From Nitrospirota bacterium (GTDB taxonomy: Bacteria; Nitrospirota; UBA9217): 54,317 nucleotides of DNA. Positions 14,015 to 16,810 of the stretch are shown in pieces (the first letter of the stretch is position 1; each line of letters starts with the position of its first letter). A program made the translations under genes and the position numbers. The notes below the pieces were generated by a model, which was not told the DNA's origin, ran no database searches, and was given only the letters and a program-made list of their open reading frames with translations. The stretch spans positions 1 through 54,317 of the forward strand of contig JAGVOT010000132.1 in NCBI GenBank assembly GCA_020052615.1, written 5' to 3'.

Positions 14015-15271
14015 TCACTTCCGGTATCGTTCCTCAATAAGCGATATTGCCCGCTTCACACCGTCTTCCCGACAAATCCGTTCACCGATCGCCTGTGCCC
14101 GCGCACGCATTTCCGGAGATGCCAGCGTGCTTTTTATGGCGCGTGAAAGAATGGATGCCGTGATGGTCCTGCGGTGCAGAAGCCGGGGTGCGATGCCGGC
14201 ACGATGAAGCACGCCGCCCCAGAAGGCCTGGTCCGTCGCATGTTCGACCACGATCGAGGGACACCCCGCACGGGAAGCGGCATGGGACGTTCCGGCCCCG
14301 CCATGGTGCACTACTGCAGCGCACCGGGGGAACACCATCTGGTGCTCCACCTGATGGAGATACAAGACATCGGCCGGCCCCGGACCAGCGGGGTTCCCGC
14401 CTGTCTGAATGATGGCGCGGCATTCCGCCAGCCCTGCAGCCTCCCTGAACAGCCGCGTTGTCTCTTCGGACGAAGGGTCGGCCGCGCCCATGCTCCCGAT
14501 GGTCATGTACACCGGTGGCGGACCCGCCTCGAGGAACCTTCTGAGCAGCTCCGGGAGCTGCGGCTGTTCCCCATGCCCGGGAAGTTCGAATGATCCGCAT
14601 TGCTGAATAGTATCGCTCCAATCGGGCGGGGCAGGGACCAGCGTTGGGCTCGACGCGACAAGGTTGAGCCGGGGCGACAGAAAGGCTTCCCCCGTGACGT
14701 TCCTGAGCTGAGGAAGACCCTCGGCTCGCCGCATGGTATTGATCCGGGGCAGGAACATCTTGTTCATCACAATTCCGCCGATCTTCCAGAACAGGGAGTT
14801 CAGGGCTCTGCCGAGGGCAGGCACACCCGGGGGCGAGTACGATGACGAGGGAAGCAGCGGCGCGAGGAATACGGCAACACGGGGCTTACCGGCAAGCTCC
14901 GCCGCGATCGTAAGGGGATAGCAGAGAAAGTGGCCGATGACCAGATCGCTGTCCACGCAGAGCCGCTTCGCTTCCCGCAGCATATCAGGAGCCGCGGGTT
15001 CAAAGAGGTCGGCCAGGATACGGTTGACCTGCCGCAGGATGTTCGTCTCGTTGACCAGGACCTCCCCCGTATGCTTCGCACTATAAGGAGGAATGCGTCC
15101 GGCGTGGATCACCGGCACGCCTACGGCTGCACCGCGGGCGCCGTGATCCTTGCCCGTCACATCGGTTACCACCAGGGTCACGTCGTGCCCGGCGCCCCGC
15201 AAACCGGCAGCCAGCGCCAGGAACGGCCTCACGTCCCCTTCGGAACCCCACGTCTGTATGCCGATCTTCAT
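14015..15271 (-). CDS. GT1-family glycosyltransferase (UGT-like)
   Basis: This 418-residue GT-B enzyme opens MKIGIQTWGSEGDVRPFLALA, the N-terminal fold of the sterol/macrolide/rhamnosyl UGT-like group. The C-terminal donor site is seen in CAAVVHHGGAGTSHAASRAG followed by PSIVVEHATDQAFW, the degenerate PSPG box. Such enzymes move a sugar from a nucleotide donor to a small lipophilic acceptor such as a sterol, macrolide or lipid. The ATG at 15271 lies about 30 nt after a predicted transcription start. The gene precedes the ECF sigma gene by 75 bp, so glycosylation may belong to the same envelope-stress response, but the acceptor is unknown. Confidence 0.82.
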   Translation of the reverse strand: MKIGIQTWGSEGDVRPFLALAAGLRGAGHDVTLVVTDVTGKDHGARGAAVGVPVIHAGRIPPYSAKHTGEVLVNETNILRQVNRILADLFEPAAPDMLREAKRLCVDSDLVIGHFLCYPLTIAAELAGKPRVAVFLAPLLPSSSYSPPGVPALGRALNSLFWKIGGIVMNKMFLPRINTMRRAEGLPQLRNVTGEAFLSPRLNLVASSPTLVPAPPDWSDTIQQCGSFELPGHGEQPQLPELLRRFLEAGPPPVYMTIGSMGAADPSSEETTRLFREAAGLAECRAIIQTGGNPAGPGPADVLYLHQVEHQMVFPRCAAVVHHGGAGTSHAASRAGCPSIVVEHATDQAFWGGVLHRAGIAPRLLHRRTITASILSRAIKSTLASPEMRARAQAIGERICREDGVKRAISLIEERYRK

Positions 15272-15308
15272 AGATTTATTCTCTGCCTGCGTGCGGAAGC
15301 TGCGCTCG

Positions 15309-15337
15309 ATTATCAGACAAGGGCCAGGGAGAGTCAA
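15309..15337 (-). promoter_or_regulatory. Sigma-70-type promoter of the glycosyltransferase gene
   Basis: On the minus strand, -35 TTGACT (15332-15337) and -10 GATAAT (15309-15314) are separated by 17 bp, with predicted start near 15302. It may also drive the downstream ECF sigma gene. Confidence 0.65.
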
Positions 15338-15433: not shown

Positions 15434-16252
15434 TTACCGGGTCGGAAGCGGGCAACCCTGCCCACCCGTGCGTCGCTGCACCAGTTCGGTCAATGCCTGT
15501 TTACTGGCAGCGGATAGCCCCAGACTGCCGATCTCCCGCATAAGCGCTTCGTACGAACCCTCGCCTCCCAGATAGCCGTTCAGGCGTGCAGCAGCAGTCG
15601 AGGCCATGAACTCTCCGGATAAAGGATAGATCCTGCGGAGCTCTTCCAGGAACTCAGGGTATTGCCGGAGCGAGTGCTTTTGGTGATAGTCCTCGGCAAG
15701 AGTGAACCCCGGGTACGGCACGATCTCAGTATACACGGTCCCGTTGAGGTTTCTCGTTATCCTGGCCTTCGTCTCCTCGGCAAGCTTTCTCTGTTCCTCG
15801 GTATGATAGAAGATGATGGATGCATACTGACGGGACCATGACCTGCGCAACGGATCCTGACCTGTCCAGAAAACTTTGAGCAACTCCTCGTAGGTTGTCC
15901 TGGCAGGGTCATAGTCTATCTGGACCGTCTCGGTGTGGTCGCCAAGATCGCGGTAGGTCGGGTCCTTCTTTGTACCACCGGCATAGCCGACCCGCGTTCT
16001 GACCACGCCGGGCAGACTCCCGAACCGGGAGTCGGGCCCCCAGAATCAGCCCATGGCGAATGTGGCCGTTTTCAGACTTCCCGGCACGATCTCATCGATC
16101 TGCGGTTTTCCGACCATTGTTCCGCCGGGTGTAATATGGCTTTTCATTGAAGACCTCCCCTCACCGGATAGAAGATGCAACGCAACTCCTGCCGAGAGAA
16201 CGAACATCAGCACAGCCAGGGCGATCCCGCTGTTCGAGCGTGTTCTTCCCAT
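15434..16252 (-). CDS. msrA: Selenocysteine-containing peptide methionine sulfoxide reductase A
   Basis: MsrA reduces methionine-S-sulfoxide. Reading through an in-frame TGA at 16046-16048 gives TATFAMG-U-FWGPDSRFG then LPGVVRTRVGYAGG, so UGA sits exactly at the catalytic cysteine of the family motif GCFWG. Sequence on both sides stays in one frame and is well conserved: the segments DHTETVQIDYDP and EDYHQKHSLRQYP, then a C-terminal resolving cysteine in GQGCPLP. A perfect 7-bp hairpin with a GGUUC loop begins shortly after the UGA (separate entry), as expected of a bacterial SECIS. The full product is 272 residues with an N-terminal membrane segment (IALAVLMFVLSAGVALHLL). It begins six bases after msrB. 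Decay is unlikely given no other damage. SelB/SelA/selC are not in the window. Confidence 0.87.
16010..16039 (-). promoter_or_regulatory. Candidate bacterial SECIS element in msrA
   Basis: In the mRNA, GGGC (16039-16036), CC, GACUCCC (16033-16027), loop GGUUC (16026-16022), GGGAGUC (16021-16015), U, GCCC (16013-16010) form a two-part hairpin with a small internal bulge. The apical loop starts 20 nt after the UGA and begins with GG, within the known bSECIS range of about 16-37 nt. All of it is translated as PDSRFGSLP. Confidence 0.75.
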
Positions 16253-16258
16253 AGGCCC

Positions 16259-16810
16259 CTACTTCCCCGCGGGCAGGAACTTCAAGGCCGCCGAGTTCAT
16301 GCAGTACCGCTTGCCCGTGGGTTTCGGTCCGTCGTTGAACACGTGTCCCAGGTGGGCGTCGCACCGCGCACAGAGCACTTCGACCCGCTCCATGAACCAG
16401 GACCGGTCCGTCTCGGTCCTGACGTTATGCTCCGAGATGGGCTCCCAGAAGCTGGGCCATCCCGTGCCGGATTCGAACTTCGTGTCCGACCGGAAAAGAT
16501 CCGTGCCGCAGCCGATGCACTGGTAGATACCCCGGTCCTTGGTCGAAGCGTATCTGCCGCTGAACGCCGGTTCGGTGCCTTTCTTCCTGGTGATCTTGAA
16601 CTCCTCAGGCGAAAGGAGCTTCCTCCATTCTTCGTCGGTCTTCACGACCCGCTCCAATTCCTCTGCCTTGTTTGTCCGGTGGTCATAGATCAGGATCTTG
16701 CCCGCAGGCTGCATGGCTGTCTCCTTCCCGAAGGCATCCCCTGAGCCGTTGGTCCGCCATGGCCAGAGCAGCAGACCCAGGAACCCCACGATGAACGATT
16801 GCCGTGTCAT
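16259..16810 (-). CDS. msrB: Peptide methionine sulfoxide reductase B, exported
   Basis: MsrB reduces methionine-R-sulfoxide, complementing MsrA. The 183-residue protein has a signal-like N-terminus (SFIVGFLGLLLWPW), the zinc-binding pairs CIGC and CARC, the conserved segment SGTGWPSFW, and the catalytic cysteine in KRYCMNSAALKF. Unlike the neighbouring MsrA it keeps cysteine (not UGA) at the active site. The stop lies six bases before the msrA start, so the two form an operon behind the promoter at 16866. Both have export signals, so the pair probably repairs oxidised periplasmic or membrane proteins. Confidence 0.93.
   Translation of the reverse strand: MTRQSFIVGFLGLLLWPWRTNGSGDAFGKETAMQPAGKILIYDHRTNKAEELERVVKTDEEWRKLLSPEEFKITRKKGTEPAFSGRYASTKDRGIYQCIGCGTDLFRSDTKFESGTGWPSFWEPISEHNVRTETDRSWFMERVEVLCARCDAHLGHVFNDGPKPTGKRYCMNSAALKFLPAGK

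Follow-up and report, generated by a model that had tools for sequence, protein, structure and literature searches.

The window (the whole 54,317-nucleotide stretch of a Nitrospirota genome analysed here) carries an msrA gene whose in-frame UGA codon almost certainly codes for the active-site selenocysteine of a methionine sulfoxide reductase A; that selenocysteine is inserted there in vivo is what we infer from comparison of sequences. For the whole account, in which the product is a CoMsrA-type selenoprotein with selenocysteine at residue 69 (Sec69), a membrane location and a route of recycling, we estimate a probability of about 0.92. The sequence-only reading of this gene as a selenoprotein is supported by the selenocysteine machinery of the genome, by 33 homologues with TGA at the same codon, by a conserved hairpin and by the family match. 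The enzyme family itself is known. What appears to be new, as judged from the sequence, is an exported form with a cysteine in its tail, and our search of the literature found no description of an exported Sec-MsrA form with its own tail cysteine.

Reading frame and catalytic codon

A single frame on the minus strand runs through 273 codons from the ATG at 16252 to the TAA at 15434, corresponding to a protein of 272 amino acids. Its sole interruption is a TGA at 16046-16048 (tca on the plus strand), which falls at residue 69, the position of the catalytic cysteine in the family motif GCFWG, so that the motif indeed reads G-UGA-FWG, as proposed before. When the UGA was read as C for scoring, the readthrough product matched the Pfam PMSR profile (PF01625) with 138 bits against a cut-off of 23.7, and TIGR00401 with 112.3 bits against a cut-off of 108.1. 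The PF01625 match, which delimits the catalytic domain (residues 62-196; 15665-16069, minus strand), extends across the UGA, and the assignment of both sides to one MsrA frame thus holds. The downstream piece by itself reached only 79 bits. Under translation table 11 the gene is divided into pieces of 68 and 190 amino acids, which bears out the expectation that automatic annotation would split it; UGA-containing msrA genes of this kind come out as two fragments in ordinary gene calling.

MsrA homologues were drawn from the named genomes and about 300 relatives, and in each the codon in the alignment column of residue 69 was inspected directly. This codon was TGA in 33 distinct sequences, one of them from genome G002 of the same genus (67% identity), and TGC or TGT in many others, so the alignment suggested earlier favours the selenoprotein. 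According to the record titles, the TGA forms come from Nitrospirota, Desulfobacterota, Planctomycetota, Actinomycetota, Synergistota, Rokuibacteriota and other phyla; most of the sources are metagenome bins, which can be mislabelled. The view that selenocysteine MsrA is uncommon does not survive this survey, since the family is fairly widespread across many phyla. In one TGA form (L112:1513-2163, genome G151) a stop directly behind NGYLG cuts off the C-terminal tail and additional stops follow; a decaying tail or a frameshift may be the cause.

The hairpin downstream of the UGA

A bacterial SECIS-type hairpin lies at 16015-16033 on the minus strand (GACUCCC-GGUUC-GGGAGUC). Its 7-bp stem starts 12 nt past the UGA and its loop, GGUUC at 16022-16026, starts 19 nt past it, confirming the GG-starting loop that had been noted in the sequence at this distance. 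In the folding check proposed with it, the single-sequence fold was unremarkable relative to dinucleotide shuffles (z -0.91), and the Rfam search returned no SECIS match at msrA. As the fold of the single sequence is not significant, the evidence for the hairpin is comparative.

The region 3' of the UGA is ungapped among the homologues, so nucleotide positions correspond exactly, and pairing of positions 16-22 with 28-34 (counted from the T of TGA) around a 5-nt loop could be scored against a null that replaced codons by synonyms, sampled according to the codon usage of the gene concerned. The 33 TGA genes formed 3.88 of the 4 inner pairs on average, compared with 2.17 expected, and had a mean hairpin energy of -10.4 kcal/mol, compared with -2.7 kcal/mol in the synonymous shuffles (median p 0.0025); these sequences are related, which makes the shuffle p-values non-independent and inflates the tests. 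The 20 cysteine homologues, nearly all of the same clade, formed 1.40 of the 4 inner pairs where 1.76 were expected (median p 0.60). Compensatory changes were found at pair 19-31 (U-A to G-C in four TGA sequences) and at pair 23-27 (G-C to A-U in three), and the covariation score was 0.105, compared with 0.061 in shuffles, none of 500 being as high. Overall pairing amounted to 82% and fell to 62% or less when the partner strand was slid. The two outermost pairs are poorly kept and often unformed among the TGA homologues; given this, and the inflation of the shuffle tests by relatedness, the strongest line of evidence is the contrast between TGA genes, in which the hairpin is kept, and cysteine genes, in which it is absent.

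Family, fold and the tail cysteine

Both profile matches and the structural model indicate that the protein is a member of the two-domain CoMsrA-type selenoprotein family. Behind the catalytic domain, a C-terminal helical domain (15473-15658, minus strand) was delimited by profile search, AlphaFold model and fold match; residues 215-249 score 25.3 bits (cut-off 23.7) with PF20939, 'Selenoprotein methionine sulfoxide reductase A, helical domain'. The best PDB sequence matches were the C. oremlandii MsrA entries 4u66 and 4lwj (E 3.5e-52). The AlphaFold model (mean pLDDT 89, with low confidence in the tail around Cys267) gave 4lwj as its best fold match, over both domains, with a TM score of 0.89 on the target. 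The fold alignment gives 44% identity in 201 columns, and the two proteins share the selenocysteine in GUFWG and the pair of domains. In a phylogenetic tree, the helical-domain proteins (33 with selenocysteine and 19 with cysteine) make up one fully supported side, separate from ordinary MsrA. Three changes between selenocysteine and cysteine are required, two of them forced by starred branches; since the root was not inferred, gains of selenocysteine are indistinguishable from losses.

CoMsrA of Clostridium/Alkaliphilus oremlandii is a protein of 209 amino acids that lacks cysteine altogether and whose N-terminus is already that of the catalytic domain (PMC4333827); it is recycled by glutaredoxin, not by thioredoxin (PMC4333827, PMC4479559). 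The protein described here differs in its N-terminal segment, a predicted membrane anchor or signal, in the position of its gene after msrB, and in Cys267 (15452-15454, minus strand), a candidate resolving cysteine identified by homologue alignment. This residue sits 198 positions past the selenocysteine in a CPxP-like tail, C-terminal to the helical domain, and makes the protein a variant of the CoMsrA type rather than a strict 1-Cys enzyme. A tail cysteine occurs in 16 of the 18 Nitrospirota TGA forms and in 21 of all 33, a subgroup having extra cysteines at +165 and +190. It is also present in two Pontibacter cysteine-form proteins, and thus is not restricted to selenocysteine forms.

Probable export and the neighbouring msrB

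Residues 8-28 (16169-16231, minus strand) form a hydrophobic helix in the AlphaFold model and on comparison with homologues, which may be a signal anchor or a signal peptide. A hydrophobic N-terminal segment was present in 27 of 33 TGA forms and in 2 of 19 cysteine forms (start codons having been chosen mechanically), and a few of the TGA forms have lipobox-like motifs at the N-terminus. It is therefore likely, as had been supposed, that the MsrA is membrane-anchored or exported, though the segment in this genome is followed by no clear cleavage site.

Upstream of msrA, the stop codon of msrB (16259-16810, minus strand; profile searches and motif) is separated from the msrA ATG by 6 nt. Its product has a hydrophobic N-terminus, both CxxC pairs and a catalytic cysteine (RYCMN), and is the cysteine-type partner that the sequence-only reading had described. 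An obligate msrB-msrA operon was rejected, because msrB adjoins msrA in only about 10 of the 33 TGA loci; other neighbours are unrelated (for example HisF-like, aldolase, PilZ and Usp genes). A scan of the region for sigma-70 promoters was uninformative. Immediately downstream of msrA, at 14015-15337 of the window on the minus strand, lies a gene for a UGT/Rgt-type glycosyltransferase that scores well under the Rgt cut-off.

PilB of Neisseria is an exported cysteine-type MsrA/MsrB system. It resembles the pair described here in that MsrA and MsrB are encoded together and, if the predicted export holds, in repairing both isomers of methionine sulfoxide outside the cytoplasm. The pair described here differs in having separate genes, selenocysteine in place of cysteine, and a helical domain instead of fused domains.

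Selenocysteine machinery and an exported glutaredoxin

Absence of the selenocysteine machinery would have argued against the selenoprotein, but the source genome (4.0 Mb, 98% complete) encodes all of it: profile searches found selA (613 bits) and selB (384 bits) adjoining each other on contig C96 and a selenocysteine-type selD (362 bits) on C59, and tRNA-Sec (score 64) is on C50. SelD itself has selenocysteine in CGUAAK, by an in-frame TGA followed by a hairpin (L145:2884-3936 on C59, plus strand). Among the Nitrospirota relatives with TGA-MsrA, selA was present in 13 of 13 and tRNA-Sec above the cut-off in 9 of 12. The Rfam search gave no tRNA-Sec in G259, G273 and G277 despite their TGA-MsrA and selA; gaps or limits of the search may account for this and are the only explanation that we offer, G273 being a single contig. 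Another relative, G008, has two selA genes (G008:C71:1919-3295 and G008:C42:9278-10666).

A glutaredoxin screen of the genome revealed two further TGA genes. One encodes a UXX-star family 1 selenoprotein with UPYT (L217:1471-1790 on C121, plus strand; 106 bits, NCBIfam cut-off 72). The other (L214:1360-1737 on C37, plus strand, TGA at L214:1525-1527) encodes a UPYC glutaredoxin with a clear signal peptide ending in ALA-GP, MPQSTGTVRNALWVILFGLLLNWSSAALA-GPR...SWUPYC. Glutaredoxin is normally cytosolic, which makes this exported selenoprotein a plausible partner of the presumably exported Sec-MsrA, and by analogy we regard it as a candidate reductant of that enzyme. A clostridial pair of Sec-glutaredoxin and Sec-MsrA was reportedly described by Kim et al. 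in 2011 under the heading 'Tandem use of selenocysteine', as cited in PMC4333827. The likeness is that a UPYC Sec-glutaredoxin and a Sec-MsrA occur in one genome, so that the two may form a periplasmic version of that pair; the difference is that both proteins appear exported here, and the clostridial ones are not known to us to carry export signals. Electrons might reach the outside through two DsbD/CcdA-type membrane proteins of the genome. Scanning the collected loci by motif gave no further convincing exported Sec-glutaredoxin.

Alternative readings of the UGA codon

The split under table 11 is the sole point in favour of a pseudogene, or of a sequencing error at a TGC or TGT codon, and this reading is refuted by the comparative data. 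TGA stands at the same codon in 33 sequences with frames intact on both sides, and structural constraint at synonymous sites is confined to the TGA forms; an error in a single assembly cannot account for sequences that include one from another genome of the genus, and the reading has virtually no chance of being correct. Leaky near-cognate read-through with tryptophan, or regulated termination, giving a protein that lacks selenium, has nothing specific in its favour and is extremely improbable too: the UGA occupies the invariant catalytic cysteine position, at which tryptophan is expected from established MsrA enzymology to leave the enzyme inactive, and the genome has the full selenocysteine machinery.

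A separate problem is posed by a second tRNA with the UCA anticodon, found alongside the normal tRNA-Sec by ARAGORN and Rfam (L002:1500-1597, G000:C130:47996-48093, plus strand). It scores above the tRNA-Sec cut-off and has an encoded CCA. A counterpart in G002 (L161/L168) shows 95% identity, the same upstream gene end and a compensatory acceptor pair. In G001, a genome of the same genus, neither the tRNA nor TGA-MsrA is present. In its 8-bp acceptor stem, 4-bp T stem and U73 the tRNA resembles selC* tRNA-Cys, and it is a potential opal suppressor. The selC* class (Mukai et al. 2017) has been reported in Nitrospirae among others, some members with the UCA anticodon (review PMC7609411); it is described with a bulged A51a, of which this tRNA shows no clear sign. 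These features would fit a reading in which UGA is translated as cysteine, always or when selenium is short, and a Cys-MsrA is made. We consider it very unlikely, because the ordinary tRNA-Sec was the only one found in most of the TGA-MsrA genomes examined, the gene having the same hairpin in several of them, because the conserved hairpin marks the use of SelB, and because this genome encodes standard selenoproteins in SelD and the UXX-star protein. Moreover, the searches of the genome revealed no second SelB above the cut-off and only one full CysRS. Insertion of some cysteine at the msrA UGA through this tRNA is possible. A broader proposal, in which Sec-MsrA, Cys-MsrB and the exported Sec-glutaredoxin would constitute a periplasmic repair system whose UGA codons are filled with cysteine by the selC*-type tRNA under selenium shortage, seems very unlikely.

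Proposed mechanism and significance

In the selenoprotein reading that we prefer, SelB bound to the downstream hairpin would deliver Sec-tRNA-Sec to the UGA, and Sec69 would be the catalytic residue. The N-terminal segment would hold the enzyme in or beyond the inner membrane, where it would reduce methionine-S-sulfoxide, the R isomer being left to the probably co-transcribed Cys-MsrB. Oxidised selenocysteine would probably be resolved by Cys267, by the exported UPYC glutaredoxin, or by both.

The Sec-MsrA characterised in PMC4333827 and PMC4479559 is one clostridial enzyme, free of cysteine and dependent on glutaredoxin. A clade of Sec-MsrA, mostly with predicted export and mostly bearing a tail cysteine, poses a testable question: is oxidised selenocysteine outside the cytoplasm recycled by way of a Sec-Cys bond within the protein, or does an exported Sec-glutaredoxin do this? 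With a second UCA tRNA in the same genome, the choice between cysteine and selenocysteine at UGA can be tested directly as well; if cysteine were indeed inserted, one gene would give either a fast selenocysteine enzyme or a slower cysteine enzyme, depending on the supply of selenium.
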